64,000 nt of DNA from Sulfurospirillum sp. 1612 (GCF_036556685.1 NZ_CP140614.1:1860001-1924000); one strand, 5' to 3'. Counted from the stretch's first letter, positions 31,892-61,491 are shown. The notes: generated by a model not told the origin, from the letters alone. Numbers and translations are program-made.

Positions 31892-33262
31892 TTATTTGTA
31901 CTTTCTATTGAAAAAATGTCCCCGTACCAATGTGCCGTAAAAATATTCAAAACCAATAGAAAGTATGATAAATACAAAAAACACGACAATCGCTTTGGGG
32001 TCTTTGGTATAGGTATGCCCTAAGAGTGTCAACAAGGACAACACGCTCACAATAGAAGAGATCATGATGAGGATTTTATTGCCATTGATATGGCGGTAGA
32101 GTTTGTACGCACTGATATTGACCAGTGAGAAAATCAATAAAAATCCAGCACTTCCGATAATCGCAATCTCTTTGAGGTCAATGGTATTGGCAATAAAAAG
32201 ACTAATCAGTGTGGTCATGATGACGCCCATCATCGGGATATCACGCTTTTGTTCATCTAATACTTGTGGTAACTCTCCTTCTTTTGCGATAATATAACCC
32301 AATCTTGCATTGCCATAAATGGTCGCATTAATCGCCGAAAACGTCGCCAACAAAGCCGCAATGGAAACCGCCACAAAACCAACATGACCCAAAGAGGGTT
32401 TCGCCGCAATAGCCAGCGCATAATCTTTGGCCGCCATCAATTCACTCTGCGAAACTGACCCCACCGTAATCACGGCAATCAAAAGGTAGAGCAAAATCAC
32501 AAAAATGACTGACCCATAAAAAGCTCGGGGGAGATTGATTGTGGGATTTTTGATCTCTTCTGCGGTATTGGCTATCAACTCAAATCCCTCATAAGCCACG
32601 AAGATAATCATCCCTGCGGCAATGATAGAAAGGGGAGATTCCCAATGGCTCACAGAGAGGCGGTTCATATCCACATGAGAGGCGCCAAAAAATATAATAA
32701 TCACCAATAATATAATCTTAATCGCCACGATGATTGATTCGGATTTGCTGACAAAAGTCGCATTGAGCAGATTAATCCCCGCTGGCAATAAAATCGCCAA
32801 ACTGATGAACACATGGCGCAACCACGTCATACTCTCACCATCATGAACAAAAGTCAGACCATAAGAAGCAAAGGCACTCGCATAGAGTGAAATCGTCACA
32901 AGATAGCTTAGCCATAGAAACAGATTGATGCCACCTGAGAGCAGGTTGTGTTTAAAAGCATTGTCGATAAATACCACCGTACCGCCTCGATTTTGATAAG
33001 CAACGGAGAGTTTGGCATACGAATAGGAACTCAACAACGCGACCAATCCTGCAACCAAAAAAGCGACTGCAGTAGCGCCGCTAGCTAAGGAGACCGCTTC
33101 CCCTAAGACCGCAAAGATACCGCCGCCAACCATGCCACCCACACCAATAGCTATCGCACCTAATAATCCTACACTACTGTTTTTTGTACTGTTTTTTGTA
33201 CTGTTTTTTGTACTGTTATTGTCTGCTTTCATAACATCCCGTTGTATCGATTTATCGCACAT
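31892..33262 (-). CDS. APC-family amino-acid permease
   Basis: A 456-aa permease with 12 predicted helices. GVGGMVGGGIFAVLGEA at the start of helix 1 and FVAYEGFELIANTAEEIKNP in helix 6 are APC signatures. Two starts are possible: ATG 33262 with an AAAGGCG site or ATG 33232 with GGGAT. The cytoplasmic N-tail has an in-frame repeat encoding Asn-Ser-Thr-Lys, three full copies. Substrate unknown; preceded by an FAD-dependent reductase gene on the same strand. Confidence 0.88.
   Translation of the reverse strand: MCDKSIQRDVMKADNNSTKNSTKNSTKNSSVGLLGAIAIGVGGMVGGGIFAVLGEAVSLASGATAVAFLVAGLVALLSSYSYAKLSVAYQNRGGTVVFIDNAFKHNLLSGGINLFLWLSYLVTISLYASAFASYGLTFVHDGESMTWLRHVFISLAILLPAGINLLNATFVSKSESIIVAIKIILLVIIIFFGASHVDMNRLSVSHWESPLSIIAAGMIIFVAYEGFELIANTAEEIKNPTINLPRAFYGSVIFVILLYLLIAVITVGSVSQSELMAAKDYALAIAAKPSLGHVGFVAVSIAALLATFSAINATIYGNARLGYIIAKEGELPQVLDEQKRDIPMMGVIMTTLISLFIANTIDLKEIAIIGSAGFLLIFSLVNISAYKLYRHINGNKILIMISSIVSVLSLLTLLGHTYTKDPKAIVVFFVFIILSIGFEYFYGTLVRGHFFNRKYK
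33176..33217. repeat. 12-bp tandem repeat in the APC permease gene
   Basis: Unit ACTGTTTTTTGT occurs three times perfectly (33176-33187, 33188-33199, 33200-33211) plus half a copy. The unit is a multiple of three, so copy-number change alters only the Asn-Ser-Thr-Lys count in the tail and cannot switch the frame. Confidence 0.85.
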
Positions 33263-41662: not shown

Positions 41663-41683
41663 TCAAGTCATTAGTATTGTTTA

Positions 41684-41780
41684 TGGGGTGCCCACAATAA
41701 TGGCTGAGATAAAACCCAACACATTCTATTTTAGAATCGAATGAACCTGATCCCGATAATGCGGGCGTAGGAAAAAGGTA
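41684..41780 (+). ncRNA. TPP riboswitch (THI element)
   Basis: The conserved THI elements appear in order: GGGGTGC (from 41685), GGCTGAGAT (41702-41710), ACCC, then GAACCTGATC (from 41743) and a variant of the GCGTAGGGAA box, here GCGTAGGAAAAAGG (from 41765). The final purine stretch also provides the thiB ribosome site, so control is probably by blocking translation. Controls thiBPQ. Confidence 0.93.
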
Positions 41781-41788
41781 AAATAATT

Positions 41789-42796
41789 ATGAAAAACAAA
41801 TCCACATCATGGCGATACATCTTTTGCATCCTCTTGCTCACCACTTTGCTTCAAGCACAAAGCGAAAAACCCACTTTGGTAGTATATGCTTATGCTTCCT
41901 TTGCTGCTTCTTGGGGGCCTGGGCCTAAAATCAAAGCGGCTTTTGAGAAAAAGTATCATTGTAATTTAAAGTTTGTCACCACATCCAGTGCGATTAGTGC
42001 CTTGCGCAAAATCCAACTTGAGGGCAAAAATACCAAAGCCGATATCTTGATGGGATTGGACAAAAGTTCTGCCAATATCGCTAGAAAAACGCATCTCTTT
42101 ATGGAACATGGTATCGATACTTCCGCACTCTCTCTTCCGATTGCATGGCATGATACCATCTTTTTGCCCTTTGATTATAGCTATTTTTCTTTTGTCTATG
42201 ATGCCCATAAAACCCACAAGGTCCCGCACTCTTTTGATGCCCTCTTAAAAATGCCAAAAGATTTTAAAATCATCATCGAAGACCCAAGATCATCCACGCC
42301 AGGCTTGGGACTTTTGCTCTGGATTAAGGCGGTCTATGGTGATAAAGCGGGTGATTATTGGAGGCAATTATCACCACACATTCTCACCATCACCAAAAGT
42401 TGGTCTGAGGCTTATGGCCTCTTTTTAAAAGGCGAAGCGGCGATGGTATTGTCCTACACGACCTCTCCGGCTTATCACATCATCGAAGAGCACAAATCAA
42501 ACTATAAAGCCGCCCCTTTTAAAAACGGGCATTATGCGCAAATCGAAGTCTCTGCCTTACTAAAATCATCGCCGCATAAAGCGTTGGCAAAAAAGTTTTT
42601 GGCGTTTACCCTCAGTGAGACTTTTGCCAATATTATCCCCACAACCAACTGGGCCTATCCCGTCATCAAAACCAAACAAGGCTTGCCTAAAGGATTTGAA
42701 TCTTTGTACATACCCACGCACATGCTCCTACTCGATGACAAAGAGATAGAGACCAATAAAAAACACTATCTTGATGAATGGCTCAATGCCTTATAA
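41789..42796 (+). CDS. thiB: Thiamine ABC transporter substrate-binding protein
   Basis: A 335-aa periplasmic protein with signal peptide (residues 1-24, ending LLQAQS). TLVVYAYASFAASWGPGPKIKAAFEKKYHC and the ADILMGLDKSS, IEDPRSSTPGLGLLLW motifs match ThiB/TbpA. Preceded by a TPP riboswitch. Binds thiamine, TMP or TPP for import. Confidence 0.92.
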   Translation: MKNKSTSWRYIFCILLLTTLLQAQSEKPTLVVYAYASFAASWGPGPKIKAAFEKKYHCNLKFVTTSSAISALRKIQLEGKNTKADILMGLDKSSANIARKTHLFMEHGIDTSALSLPIAWHDTIFLPFDYSYFSFVYDAHKTHKVPHSFDALLKMPKDFKIIIEDPRSSTPGLGLLLWIKAVYGDKAGDYWRQLSPHILTITKSWSEAYGLFLKGEAAMVLSYTTSPAYHIIEEHKSNYKAAPFKNGHYAQIEVSALLKSSPHKALAKKFLAFTLSETFANIIPTTNWAYPVIKTKQGLPKGFESLYIPTHMLLLDDKEIETNKKHYLDEWLNAL

Positions 42797-57256: not shown

Positions 57257-58276
57257 TTACTCTTTTGTTTTTAACTCTTTGAGTATTCTTTTTAAGGCAA
57301 ATACAAAACTCTCAGGGCTATCTTCTTGGCTGAAATGATTGGCATCTGCGATTAATTGCAAATTTCCATTGGGATAAAAAGAGCGCCATTTTGCGATGTT
57401 TTTGGCAGTTCCAAACCAAGGATCTTTAGCTCCGAATATAAACTCCACAGGTTTATGAGCCAGTGTAGGTAATTTTGCTTCTAATTGCTCCAACCAAGGT
57501 GCTGCATCAGTGATGGCTTGAGGAAATACTAATGTACCTTTTCGTGATTTTGGTGTGGGAAATGGCATCTTATAAGCATCTAAAATGGCTTTGTTGTTTT
57601 TTGTTGTTTCATTTAAAACACTCGGCAAAATTGTAGTCGCAAAGTAGTTGTTTTCAATCATTAATTTTTCCATTTTGGGTGTTTTCATCATTTCTGAAAA
57701 TTCTTTTAGTTTGCCTTTTGCTGGCCATGCCCAGGTATTGGAGATAACGAGACCCAAAATTTTATCGGGATTATCAGTAGCAACACTTAAGCCTATTGGC
57801 CCACCCCAATCTTGAACAACAAGGATAAATTTATCTAGTTTTAAATGTTCATGAAGTAATGCCTTGACCCATTTGACATGTTCTTGTGGCGTAAAACTGT
57901 AGTTTTTAGGAGTATCTGAAAAACCAAATCCCGGTAAATCAAAAGCAATCACCCTTGCATATTTTGACATTCCTTTAATAATTTTTCTATTTAAAAATGA
58001 CCAATCCGGATTTCCATGTGTCAAAACGATAGGAATGCCCGCTCCCTCATCAATATAGTGCATCGATACGCCATCTTTTTTAAACCAATTACTTTTAAAA
58101 GGATACTCTTTTTTATCTACGATAAAAGGTCTTTGTTTCATATTTGTTATATCTTTGTTAAAGACAACTGGATCTGCTTGTTGATTATAAATAATCGCTT
58201 CGGCCATCATATTGGTTATACCTACCGATAATAAGATACCAACGATAACTAAGCCCTTAAAATTCCTTTGTATCAT
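57257..58276 (-). CDS. Exported haloalkane-dehalogenase-like alpha/beta hydrolase
   Basis: A 339-aa protein with an N-terminal signal or anchor (about 8-25). The core has HGNPDW (oxyanion hole and halide-binding Asn/Trp pattern), nucleophile Asp in VVQDWGGPIGL, an acid in FGAKDPWFG and the catalytic His in ANHFSQED. Nucleophile Asp with the adjacent Trp points to haloalkane dehalogenase or fluoroacetate dehalogenase relatives rather than serine esterases. A periplasmic location would be unusual for that group. Downstream of a TetR gene with shared operators. Confidence 0.8.
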   Translation of the reverse strand: MIQRNFKGLVIVGILLSVGITNMMAEAIIYNQQADPVVFNKDITNMKQRPFIVDKKEYPFKSNWFKKDGVSMHYIDEGAGIPIVLTHGNPDWSFLNRKIIKGMSKYARVIAFDLPGFGFSDTPKNYSFTPQEHVKWVKALLHEHLKLDKFILVVQDWGGPIGLSVATDNPDKILGLVISNTWAWPAKGKLKEFSEMMKTPKMEKLMIENNYFATTILPSVLNETTKNNKAILDAYKMPFPTPKSRKGTLVFPQAITDAAPWLEQLEAKLPTLAHKPVEFIFGAKDPWFGTAKNIAKWRSFYPNGNLQLIADANHFSQEDSPESFVFALKRILKELKTKE

Positions 58277-58308
58277 GATGCATTCCTTGAGTTAAATTTA
58301 CAAAATGA

Positions 58309-58320
58309 TACCAAGTGGTA
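58309..58320. promoter_or_regulatory. TetR operator 1 (before the hydrolase gene)
   Basis: TACCA-AG-TGGTA, perfect 5-bp arms with a 2-bp centre, 33 bases before the hydrolase start codon at 58276. Same arms as at 58995-59006. Confidence 0.65.
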
Positions 58321-58343
58321 CGTTAATAGATGCTTAAATTTTA

Positions 58344-58355
58344 TACCACATAGTA
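58344..58355. promoter_or_regulatory. TetR operator 2 (imperfect)
   Basis: TACCA-CA-TAGTA, one mismatch from the TACCA-N2-TGGTA pattern, between the TetR stop and operator 1. Confidence 0.45.
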
Positions 58356-58361
58356 TTTTAA

Positions 58362-58961
58362 TTATTTAAAAACAGAAAATGCAAGTAGAAGTATCTCTTT
58401 GAGCTTCGATGTACTAAAGCCATTAAAGATTTTTGTCATGGCCATGCTCACTTGTGCATCGATGTAATTGACAGCAAGTTGTGTTGAGATATCTTTGGGA
58501 AATTCATTGTTGTTTTTTGCTCGCTCAATCCATCTGGTAAATGAACGTAAAAATTCTTCTTGGATTCTTTCAATCTGTGCTTGACTCTGGGCTCCTAATG
58601 GATATTTTAAATCGCGCGTTCTGATAAATAAACAACCGTATTGATTGGGACTGTTTGTTGTTAAAATATCGATGTATTCATTGAGTGTCTCGTCAAAAGA
58701 TTTATTTTGCAAAAATATTTTGTGAATAGGCTTCAAGACTTCTTGTTGATAGTGTTCTAAAACCGCCTTTATAAGTCCATCATCATTGCCAAATTCACGA
58801 TAAATCCCGGGTTTTGATACATTGGTACGTTTGCAGATTTTATTCAAAGAGATGGCCTCAATGCCCTCTTTCCAATATGCTTGCATACTGACATCTAACA
58901 CCTGCTTTCGATCTAGCGTTTTTGGTCTTCCTCTGGAGCGTTTTTTCTCTTCTGCTATCAT
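58362..58961 (-). CDS. TetR-family regulator of the hydrolase
   Basis: A 199-aa regulator. N-terminal helix-turn-helix EAISLNKICKRTNVSKPGIYREFGNDDGLIKAVLEHY is the TetR pattern; the rest is a helical ligand domain. It precedes the hydrolase gene on the same strand, 85 bases apart, with operators in front of both genes. Ligand unknown, possibly an organohalide or related electrophile. Confidence 0.88.
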   Translation of the reverse strand: MIAEEKKRSRGRPKTLDRKQVLDVSMQAYWKEGIEAISLNKICKRTNVSKPGIYREFGNDDGLIKAVLEHYQQEVLKPIHKIFLQNKSFDETLNEYIDILTTNSPNQYGCLFIRTRDLKYPLGAQSQAQIERIQEEFLRSFTRWIERAKNNNEFPKDISTQLAVNYIDAQVSMAMTKIFNGFSTSKLKEILLLAFSVFK

Positions 58962-59006: not shown

Positions 59007-59369
59007 CTTTAATTTGTATTAAATTATTATATCTTGCATTTTCTTTGAGTACTTCACATCATTTTATAAAATTCATACATAAGTTTTGGTTTAGAACTGT
59101 ATCCGTGAGACTAAAATAATAACAGGGATTAAAAATGAAGTGGCGGACAGAGAGGAATTCAAAAAAATCGTATGGTTTTATTACTAGAAATCATCAAAAT
59201 CGCGTGTTGCAAATCCATTAAACAGAAAAACTGTTCTAATTTTTAAGTCCTCTATTATCCTGAATATCTAAGACTTAATGCGAAATCATAGAATTACTTC
59301 ATCGCTTTATCATATAATTGCAACATAAGTATGGCTGTAGTAAAATGATAAATGACTTAAAATATAAAA
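59007..59369. other. Gene-free stretch: left end of the tRNA-Ser element
   Basis: No supported gene. It holds the left copy of the att repeat (59124-59160), a short AACAG/CTGTT hairpin near 59220 followed by a T-rich run, and a promoter-like TATAAT at 59313-59318 that points into the unknown gene at 59394. Confidence 0.6.
59124..59160. repeat. Left attachment-site repeat of the tRNA-Ser element
   Basis: 37-bp direct repeat of 61384-61420 with one mismatch (36/37; the first 32 bp are identical). The last 20 bases copy the 3' end of tRNA-Ser (CCA, discriminator, acceptor strand), so this is the displaced att copy of an integration event. The distance between copies is 2,260 bp. Confidence 0.85.
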
Positions 59370-59393
59370 ATGAGTTTGATAGGACGGTTGCAA

Positions 59394-60500
59394 ATGAAAG
59401 AATTGTTTAGAGCAAATCTATATCTAGCTGATAGTGATAGCGTAATTTCTCAAAATAGTAATGAAAATTATATTGTAAAATTTAAATCTAGTTTATTATT
59501 AGCGAAATCAATCGGAATGAATCCAAATATGATAATAGATAGTCTTGGTTTTGAAAAAGTTTGTCAAGATGATAATATAAAAAAATTTCTTATTAGAAGA
59601 ATCAATCAGTCAAAAGAAGAAGAAGGCCCTAAATATTCTATTAAGGTGCATATATTTAATAACTTTATTGAAAAAAACTATTTTGACTGTAATAAAACTG
59701 ATAATCCATTTCAAAGATATTATGAAAAAATGATAGAAGACCCTTATCATTTTAGTTCATATGGACTCAAAAAAAATGAATTGGAAAAGAATTCTGAGCA
59801 TAAAAAACGAAAAAATGAAAGATTAGAGGTATTATACAAGTTTGGGCATGAAATTTACCACAAGACTGGTTCCAACATATTTGAAATACACAATCATGAT
59901 TCCAATAAATTAAGAGACTTAATCATTGATAGGATAAACTTCACCCAAAAAGAAATCAAAAAAGATGAATACCTTTCTTCAGAAAACAGCACAAAGGAAT
60001 ACTTGAATCTATTAAAAGAATTTATTGATATGATAAAATATAATCAGAATATATTAAATCGTTCACATTTTTATGACCTATTAAAAGAAGACAATATTAA
60101 GAAGGGTTTTAGCGAAAATATAATTAACAAAGTAAAAAAAGATATTATTGATATATCATACAGCAGCTCATTTATTAAAGAAGGAGAGATATACAGATAT
60201 AAGAGCATTCCAAAATTGGACACTTTTCTTGCGAGAATTTTTAATATGTATACAGAAAAAGAATTTGTATTTCAACTTGAAAATTTATATAAAGAATTTA
60301 AAAATCTAAAATCTAAAATTGAAATCATAGATTTGATGGTACATCCAACAAAAATGTGTAATTATCTTCTCAATGAATTAATGAATACCACCCAAGATAA
60401 AGGAATCAATATATTACATACTTACGCTTCTAGAATCATTAGTAGGACTAAGGTGATGGGAATTGCTGATTCAGAGAACTTAGTAATAGGGATGAAATAA
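59394..60500 (+). CDS. Unrecognised cargo protein of the tRNA-Ser element
   Basis: About 368 aa from the ATG at 59394, which has AGGACGG upstream; an in-frame ATG at 59370 lacks a ribosome site. Soluble, with no signal or membrane segment, rich in Lys, Asn, Ile and Glu. Many predicted helices (LKEFIDMIKYNQNILN; FQLENLYKEFKNLKSKIEIIDLMVHP). FGHEIYHKTG and EIHNHDSNK are His-containing patches, but no catalytic motif is certain. The stop overlaps the NUDIX start (TAATG), so the two proteins are made together and likely act together. I could not assign a family. Confidence 0.8.
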   Translation: MKELFRANLYLADSDSVISQNSNENYIVKFKSSLLLAKSIGMNPNMIIDSLGFEKVCQDDNIKKFLIRRINQSKEEEGPKYSIKVHIFNNFIEKNYFDCNKTDNPFQRYYEKMIEDPYHFSSYGLKKNELEKNSEHKKRKNERLEVLYKFGHEIYHKTGSNIFEIHNHDSNKLRDLIIDRINFTQKEIKKDEYLSSENSTKEYLNLLKEFIDMIKYNQNILNRSHFYDLLKEDNIKKGFSENIINKVKKDIIDISYSSSFIKEGEIYRYKSIPKLDTFLARIFNMYTEKEFVFQLENLYKEFKNLKSKIEIIDLMVHPTKMCNYLLNELMNTTQDKGINILHTYASRIISRTKVMGIADSENLVIGMK

Positions 60501-61054
60501 TGTTGTACACTCAACAAACAAATTCTATCTTCAAAAATAATTATATTGAGCTACAAAATAATTTAGTAAAAAATGAACAGACGAACCAAGTATTCAAACA
60601 TATTAAAATAATTGAAAAGAATACAATAAAACCAGGGAGTGTAATTTTGTGTGAATATAAGAAAAAAATTATGCTACTTGAATTATATAGATATGGAATA
60701 AATGCCATATCTTGGGAATTTCCCAGAGGATATATAGAGGATAACGAATCATTGAGTGAATGTGCAATTAGAGAACTTTATGAAGAAGCTAATATTATTT
60801 TCAATAAAGAAACTGATCAAATAATTCAACTAGGCGAAACTGCAGTAAACTCTTCTATTATGGCTTCTAAAGTTTCATTATTTTTGGTTAAGATTAATCA
60901 TACTATTGATATAAAACTTCAAAACAATGAAAATATTAAATCAATAAGTTGGATTACCCAAAAGGAAATACAAGATTATATTAAAAATGGAATAATTATT
61001 GACAGCTTTACAATTAACACTTTAATGTTTTATAATCTAACATATAACTACTAA
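60500..61054 (+). CDS. NUDIX hydrolase cargo protein
   Basis: A 184-aa protein with a complete NUDIX box: GYIEDNESLSECAIRELYEEA (G-x5-E-x7-R-E-x2-E-E pattern). The flanking VILCEYKKKIMLLELYRYGINAISWEFPRG resembles ADP-ribose pyrophosphatase-type NUDIX enzymes (WEFPrG). It probably hydrolyses an ADP-ribose- or nucleotide-type diphosphate. Coupled by overlapping TAATG to the upstream unknown gene. The stop lies where the integrase remnant begins. Confidence 0.88.
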   Translation: MLYTQQTNSIFKNNYIELQNNLVKNEQTNQVFKHIKIIEKNTIKPGSVILCEYKKKIMLLELYRYGINAISWEFPRGYIEDNESLSECAIRELYEEANIIFNKETDQIIQLGETAVNSSIMASKVSLFLVKINHTIDIKLQNNENIKSISWITQKEIQDYIKNGIIIDSFTINTLMFYNLTYNY

Positions 61055-61325
61055 AGTCTATAGATTAGGAGAGCCTTTTAATACTTGTGACAAAATCAGT
61101 TCTCATTATTGGAAACCTACATTAAAAAAGTTAGGCGTTACCTATCGTAACCTATATCAAATGAGACACACTTTTGCGTCCCTTATGATATCAAATGGGG
61201 AAGATATTTTGTGGGTTTCTAATATGTTAGGTCACAAACACAGCTCAATGACTCTTGATATGTATGCTCGATATGTCAGGCAAAAAAGTAGGAAAAGAGC
61301 TACCTTTTTACAAGATGCTTCCTGA
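61053..61325 (+). pseudogene. C-terminal remnant of a tyrosine recombinase
   Basis: Frame open from 61041 to the TGA at 61323-61325 with no start codon or ribosome site. It reads KVYRLGEPFNTCDKIS..., then LYQMRHTFASLMISNGEDILWVSNMLGHKHSSMT and MYARYVR, i.e. the R-H-x-x-[ST] box, the LGHxxxxMT box and the catalytic Tyr of phage-type integrases. All of the N-terminal and most of the central part, including the first catalytic Arg, is missing. The remnant points at tRNA-Ser, the normal position for an integrase beside its att site. Confidence 0.88.
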
Positions 61326-61383
61326 TGTTTTGGGCACAATTTGGGCACAGTAGATTTTTTCTCTTAACAAAGTACCGTAAAAT

Positions 61384-61420
61384 AGGGATTAAAAATGAAG
61401 TGGCGGACAGAGAGGGATTC
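61384..61420. repeat. Right attachment-site repeat (within tRNA-Ser)
   Basis: Second copy of the 37-bp repeat; 20 of its bases are the 3' end of the intact tRNA-Ser gene. Confidence 0.85.
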
Positions 61421-61491
61421 GAACCCTCGGTACCCTTACGAGTACGCATCCTTAGCAGGGATGTGGTTTCAGCCAACTCACCCATCTGTCC
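61401..61491 (-). tRNA. tRNA-Ser (GCU)
   Basis: 91 nt including encoded CCA. Acceptor stem GGACAGA/TCTGTCC, anticodon stem CATCC/GGATG around loop CTGCTAA (anticodon GCU, reads AGC/AGU), long variable arm typical of serine tRNA, T arm GAGGG-TTCGAAT-CCCTC. Serves as integration site for the element to its left. Confidence 0.96.

Follow-up and report, generated by a model that had tools for sequence, protein, structure and literature searches.

Paired attachment sites, an integrase remnant and two cargo genes at tRNA-Ser(GCU) of Sulfurospirillum sp. 1612: a decayed relative of small tRNA-targeting integrative elements

In Sulfurospirillum sp. 1612, the 3' end of a tRNA-Ser(GCU) gene adjoins a short A/T-rich insert enclosed by two copies of an attachment site (att). 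The locus lies in a 64,000-nucleotide stretch of the genome (NZ_CP140614.1:1860001-1924000; hereafter the window, from whose first base all coordinates are counted unless a locus is named). It is interpreted here as an element from a family of small integrative elements that target tRNA genes, reduced by internal deletion and resembling a cis-mobilizable element (CIME), and a probability of about 0.86 is attached to this interpretation. The broader reading of the locus as a decayed tRNA element is strongly supported. From left to right, the insert comprises an att copy, the left terminus of the element, an open reading frame (ORF1), a NUDIX hydrolase gene, the C-terminal part of an integrase, a pair of arm sites and the second att copy. 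The integrase clade of the family at a tRNA 3' end and the att and terminal sequences are all present. No trace of the family backbone, i.e., an 85-aa gene, Rep and a helix-turn-helix (HTH) gene, was found between the att sites, and the locus is therefore a derivative rather than a complete family member.

The left attachment site (59121-59163) and the right one (61381-61423), which takes in the 3' end of the tRNA gene, are identical at 40 of 43 positions, with 36/37 in the central block (59124-59160 and 61384-61420). The original prediction had reported this block as a 37-bp direct repeat including the last 20 bases of tRNA-Ser; that observation was confirmed and the repeat extended to 43 bp, of which 23 are the last bases of the tRNA gene, the remainder of either repeat lying outside the tRNA. 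The tRNA-Ser(GCU) gene (61401-61491, minus strand), detected as one tRNA by both ARAGORN and Rfam, is intact and would be the integration target. The left site is made up of the displaced 3' end of tRNA-Ser and 20 bp from beyond the tRNA; it is slightly decayed (GAATTCAAA vs. GGATTCGAA), with 21/23 positions conserved in its tRNA part. A chance repeat beside a tRNA, flanking native genes, could be proposed since short repeats are abundant in A/T-rich genomes. However, the next-best match to the 43-mer in the window reached only 24/43 on the same strand and 26/43 on the other, so that a repeat of 40/43 is not attributable to chance, and the explanation is refuted, with hardly any probability left to it, by the homology of both ends and of the integrase to the intact element L094 described below.

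The base composition of the insert is equally distinctive. Between the att copies the G+C content is 27%; ORF1 has 25.4% (22.5% at third codon positions, GC3) and the NUDIX gene 24.7% (GC3 20%), as against 35-43% in five flanking genes and 38.7% in the window as a whole, and the cargo has the lowest G+C content among 1660-bp stretches of the window. The A/T-rich two-gene cargo that had been predicted thus stood up to comparison with its flanks in G+C content, and the accompanying integrase stub was also recognized. This stub (61061-61325, plus strand; stop codon at 61323-61325) represents the last ~85 residues of a tyrosine integrase and keeps the RHTF and LGHKH motifs and the catalytic tyrosine region, without the N-terminal and arm-binding domains. 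It matched the Pfam family Phage_integrase (E 5.2e-8) at profile positions 110-167 of 172, i.e., at the C-terminal end only. Besides this truncated gene, no other mobility gene is present between the att sites.

The best match of the stub in 100 relatives was an intact 370-aa integrase at locus L094 in genome G037, which belongs to the same family as the window genome and to a different genus (83% identity over 78 aa); several further integrases were 53-66% identical. The proportion of nonsynonymous differences between the stub and L094 was 0.12 and that of synonymous differences 0.61 (dN/dS ~0.1), indicating that the pair evolved mostly under constraint. The L094 contig, on which no tRNA was found, also contains the 43-bp att at 39/43 identity. 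One side of this att is joined to the integrase end, as at the right end of the window locus, and the other side matches the left end, where the left att and the adjoining inner end align with the single att of L094; the homology continues from the att through approximately the first 40 bp of the left terminus (P' arm) and ORF1 leader (59164-59393). Such an arrangement looks like an attP or a junction of two tandem copies. Beside the L094 integrase are an HTH/excisionase-like gene, a 453-aa Rep and an 85-aa gene. At the window locus, paired repeats of TTTGGGCAC (61329-61348, plus strand, starting at 61329 and 61340 and thus 11 bp apart) lie between the integrase stop codon and the att. They are probably arm-type integrase sites, as their GGGCAC core recurs with the same spacing at the integrase-gene ends of L094, L152, L157, L179, L180 and L185. 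A short inverted repeat, CCGTAAAATAGGG (61375-61387, plus strand), situated between the arm sites and the tRNA, also recurs in the family.

Complete elements of this family follow a common layout: att, variable cargo, a ~340-aa gene, the 85-aa gene, Rep, HTH/Xis, Int and att. Homologues of Rep were detected with a Rep profile in 42 of 399 genomes of the order, and the order 85-aa gene, Rep, HTH, Int recurs in 44 loci examined, with parts missing in some. In ~30 of the 44 loci Int ends at a tRNA 3' end, the tRNAs used being Asn, Met, Leu, Arg, Ala and Ser (anticodons GGA, TGA and GCU). Direct repeats of 16-74 bp delimit 27 elements of 4.3-9.8 kb. The view that the locus reflects a tRNA-targeted integration shrunk to its cargo therefore gained substance from L094, with its 83% identical integrase, the same att and matching ends, and from the 27 delimited elements of the same layout. 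A search of the open-access full-text literature returned no published description of this Rep-Int family, which is not proof of unpublished status. Related elements are also present at tRNA-Ser(UGA) in two genomes of the same genus as the window (L150 and L182 in G003 and G006); L150, of 5.2 kb and almost without cargo, may show the minimal backbone.

Alternatively, the locus could be what is left of a common temperate prophage of the tailed or filamentous kind, which integrated in tRNA-Ser and decayed to two morons. In favour of this are the tyrosine integrase at a tRNA, the match of PHROGs integrase families to the stub, and IMG/VR contigs of 5-21 kb that contain distant relatives of Rep (20-31% identity), so that an ancestry common with small phages may exist. 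However, no virion genes are recognised in the elements that supply the closest integrase and att, nor were any found in the delimited elements; Zot models gave matches in 5 of 25 host genomes, always outside the elements, and the backbone genes scanned gave no structural-protein match of note. Rep itself had no match among 50,697 phage records or in plasmid records and its resemblance to Rep_trans is weak (E <= 0.01 in 3 of 31 members, best E 1.1e-4), and no structural, terminase or replication phage genes lie between the att sites of the window locus. A prophage origin is accordingly regarded as quite improbable. The 85-aa gene, which matched no family, holds the position of the ssDNA-binding protein gene in small ssDNA phages and by this analogy might encode such a protein. 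Among the core genes scanned there was no clear match to capsid-size, helper-hijack or packaging families, although no search was aimed at these, and neither a coupling protein nor a canonical relaxase was seen in the family.

The following history is proposed for the window locus as a deleted member of this family. An element of full layout would have entered the 3' end of tRNA-Ser(GCU) through tyrosine recombination, regenerating the tRNA on the integrase side and leaving the former 3' end displaced at 59121-59163. A single deletion would have followed, extending from just past the NUDIX stop codon into the integrase gene and taking with it the ~340-aa gene, the 85-aa gene, Rep, Xis and the greater part of Int. 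What remains is the two-gene cargo, the C-terminus of the integrase with the arm on its side, and the att site at either end. The approximate junction is placed at 61055-61066, where homology to the L094 integrase begins (from ~61061), ~6 bp past the NUDIX stop. A single internal deletion is the simplest account of this structure. The locus also illustrates a likely end-state of such islands, in which the backbone is gone while cargo and att sites persist in a tRNA hotspot.

The 2.26-kb unit might still work as a minimal mobile cassette if the integrases encoded by resident full elements acted on it in trans to excise and re-integrate it. It has kept its two att sites, its arm-type repeats and part of the P' end, its cargo frames are intact, and accretion and mobilisation of CIMEs have been published for systems of integrative and conjugative elements (ICEs) and integrative and mobilizable elements (IMEs) (PMC5704250). 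On the other hand, a Rep profile search found no family Rep in the whole of its own genome, and the other integrases there are distant, the best further match to the stub being at E 1.1e-5; the unit therefore cannot move, whether by machinery of its own or by closely related machinery resident in the genome. Together with the decay in the tRNA part of the left att and the absence of a second copy of the ORF1-NUDIX cassette from the sampled genomes, this makes a mobile cassette unlikely. Under the interpretation preferred here the unit lacks self-mobility, yet a compatible integrase acting in trans might, in principle, still excise or capture it.

The tRNA-Ser(GCU) site was also compared among relatives. 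The neighbourhood of the tRNA and a helicase gene is conserved in several congeners, in none of which was the repeat or the cargo found beside the tRNA. Of the empty site expected in relatives, with the TetR region joined directly to tRNA-Ser, no clean example was found. At least three further genomes (L101, L172 and L179) have full elements with this type of integrase and Rep at tRNA-Ser(GCU), and this tRNA is a hotspot elsewhere in the order. At L180, a full element has a C-terminal integrase remnant (57% identity over 40 aa; oriented position ~2247) immediately beyond its left att; the tail of this older integrase directly shows that a single tRNA has received successive integrations. By analogy, the 20 bp of the repeat that lie outside the tRNA in the window may have the same origin; an older integrase remnant was looked for to the left of the left att of the window and none was detected. 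Another integrase remnant, with a stop codon, ends at tRNA-Ser(GCU) at positions 6381-6599 of L098 (G047), where the left att was not found. Unrelated islands with other integrases (~293 aa) and 20-bp repeats 12-14 kb apart occupy the same tRNA at L108, L109 and L111.

Several points weigh against the interpretation preferred here. No empty site with the same left flank could be identified, because the TetR/hydrolase side has no counterpart in relatives. The 20 bp of identity beyond the tRNA exceed a minimal core, and an earlier occupant of the site could be their source. Since no other ORF1-NUDIX copy is available, neither the movement of the pair nor the selection on it is measurable. Some cargo of the family is also not defence by name, i.e., the pentapeptide membrane protein of L095, the AraC regulator of L168 and the GGDEF protein of L176.

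The cargo of complete elements is confined to the variable segment between the left att and the ~340-aa gene, in which no gene was called in L150 and L162. L162 and L163 agree in their left ends (139 bp, 93.5%) and backbones (4.0 kb, 90.8%), and what sets them apart is 4.4 kb of cargo, with a Schlafen-type helicase, in L163; L167 and L168 present the same pattern of like backbones and different cargo. Intact pairs thus have a left terminus of ~140 bp in common ahead of the cargo slot, and it is the position of this slot that ORF1 and the NUDIX gene occupy. The majority of the identifiable cargo is defence-like. It includes GmrSD_N (L096, L149, L173), reverse transcriptases (L151, L161), AAA_21/OLD-like ATPases (L156, L157, L172), NB-ARC/TPR (L158), the Schlafen helicase (L163), a KAP NTPase (L164), the HaeII restriction enzyme of a restriction-modification (R-M) system (L165), TIR (L180), Mrr (L094) and HD-CE/HATPase (L148). 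A reverse transcriptase with a TIR-like end was found in L097, whose integrase is related and whose Rep is different. Elsewhere in the set there were Thoeris ThsA/ThsB, Vsr, a C5 methylase, HEPN and toxin-antitoxin (TA) proteins. No family was found for the cargo of L155, L159, L166 and L174, in each of which one protein was scanned. Gene calls in the elements were mechanical (longest non-overlapping frames), and minor cargo genes may be missed or wrong. The suggestion that such a site serves for swapping small defence or stress modules is thus well supported for the family, in which near-identical backbones carry different and, where identifiable, mostly defence-like cargo. The element at L097 (1-6181, G041) is inserted at tRNA-Asn and carries, besides its retron-type RT-TIR-like protein, a Gp49/HigB-like TA pair.

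The first cargo gene of the window locus, ORF1 (59394-60500, plus strand), is an open frame of 368 aa; its most likely start is 59394, the alternative at 59370 giving 376 aa. It overlaps the NUDIX gene at TAATG (60498-60502). No convincing match was obtained in Pfam, NCBIfam, PADLOC, PHROGs, PDB, plasmids or phages, nor by pattern scans of IMG/VR and GTDB contigs. ORF1 was likewise found in 0 of the 100 sampled relatives and in none of 397 genomes of the phylum; the two genes are thus not a pair that all close relatives carry without the repeat, which would have spoken against a mobile origin. Three weak partial matches (E 3e-4 to 6e-3, 83-100 residues, 28-31% identity), two of them in stop-containing frames, were not accepted. 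A fold prediction made without an alignment was too poor for use (mean predicted local distance difference test score 38, predicted template modelling score 0.24). Identity of ORF1 with the ~340-aa backbone gene was ruled out by profile comparison (hhalign probability 0.1%), though the backbone gene is very divergent.

The second cargo gene (60500-61054, plus strand), whose start overlaps the ORF1 stop codon, encodes a NUDIX hydrolase of 184 aa. The protein matched Pfam NUDIX PF00293 above the gathering score (E 3.7e-10), the PADLOC candidate-defence model PDC-S07 (E 8.7e-10) and solved mRNA-decapping enzymes (E ~1e-6). The NCBIfam NudE-like model gave E 2.5e-8, far below its cut-off, and the protein fell under all curated NCBIfam cut-offs. 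It resembles the NUDIX superfamily (NudE/ADP-ribose-type and Dcp2-like) in its Pfam domain and catalytic box, GYIEDNESLSECAIRELYEEANI, which retains the REXXEE residues, but differs in that the glycine of EEXGU is replaced (EEANI), in its sub-cut-off NCBIfam scores and in its orphan partner gene. No described anti-phage system in PADLOC matched both genes, PDC-S07 being a match of the NUDIX protein only and ORF1 having none, and no ORF1-like partner, by position or annotated product, lies beside the NUDIX gene in two plasmid matches (Streptomyces and Pseudomonas).

What the two genes do could be read in two ways. They might be metabolic or stress cargo concerned with nucleotide housekeeping rather than defence. 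NUDIX enzymes are often house-cleaning, the nearest models include NudE, RNA pyrophosphohydrolase and decapping-like enzymes, and some elements of the family carry regulators. This reading is a real though lesser possibility, because the identifiable family cargo is mostly defence-like and the PADLOC candidate-defence model matched at E 8.7e-10; ORF1, moreover, is an orphan, as conflict genes often are. NUDIX enzymes, which cleave NDP-X compounds, also recur in phage-bacteria conflicts over NAD+ and ADP-ribose (PMC9503650). The association with the cargo of the family slightly favours a two-gene conflict module, anti-phage or TA-like, in which the NUDIX protein might hydrolyse a nucleotide derivative and ORF1 might be its partner. 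A bolder proposal, which is at present doubtful, is that ORF1-NUDIX is an undescribed two-gene anti-phage or TA system and the 2.26-kb unit a minimal cassette moved in trans by related elements; in that case the parent family would be a so far unrecognised group of Rep-bearing tRNA elements, spread across the order, whose role is to shuttle defence systems. More interesting than a CIME-like fossil of a known kind is the parent family itself, in which a defined slot receives defence genes. It suggests a rule for seeking new anti-phage systems in these bacteria, namely to inspect the slot beside the left att at integrase-bearing tRNA genes, and ORF1-NUDIX and the family-less cargo of L155, L159 and L174 are candidates for such systems.

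Comparison with known systems places the locus closest to CIMEs, from which it does not differ in its retention of both att sites, integrase stub, cargo and position at a tRNA 3' end, nor in the loss of the backbone. CIMEs are described as derivatives of ICEs or IMEs (PMC5704250), whereas the parent here would be a Rep-bearing element with a weakly Rep_trans-like initiator, in which no coupling protein or canonical relaxase was seen. In structure, the locus agrees with the published definition of a CIME (PMC5704250), a conjugative or mobilizable parent being the one feature in doubt. The family as a whole resembles the streptococcal Rep_trans IMEs (PMC5704250) in small size, tyrosine integrase, integration at gene 3' ends, a Rep_trans-like initiator and occasional R-M or TA cargo, but its Rep_trans match is weak, no coupling protein or canonical relaxase was seen and its hosts are unrelated to streptococci. 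With P4-like satellites and P2-like phages bearing defence hotspots (Rousset et al. 2022, PMC9122126) it has in common a small integrated element and one variable slot for diverse anti-phage systems, whereas its backbone of Rep and the 85-aa gene is not a module of P4 or of phage-inducible chromosomal islands, no helper-hijack or capsid-size genes were recognised and no helper was identified. Inovirus prophages are alike in their size of 4-10 kb, short gene at the position of the ssDNA-binding protein gene and distant Rep relatives in IMG/VR, and may be alike in a Rep_trans-like initiator; however, the delimited elements contain no Zot or coat genes.

Some further features of the window were recorded. 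Neither of the genes to the left of the element, encoding an alpha/beta hydrolase and a TetR regulator (57257-58961), has a counterpart close to tRNA-Ser in congeners. The hydrolase had no match at E <= 1e-30 in 43 relatives, and this flank may be an acquisition in its own right. A perfect 12-bp tandem repeat, TACTGTTTTTTG, is present in 3.6 copies at 33175-33217, around the end (5' part) of an open reading frame on the minus strand (31892-33262). A thiamine pyrophosphate (TPP) riboswitch (Rfam RF00059, 54.5 bits, just above the gathering score) is located at 41674-41790, upstream of the gene at 41789.
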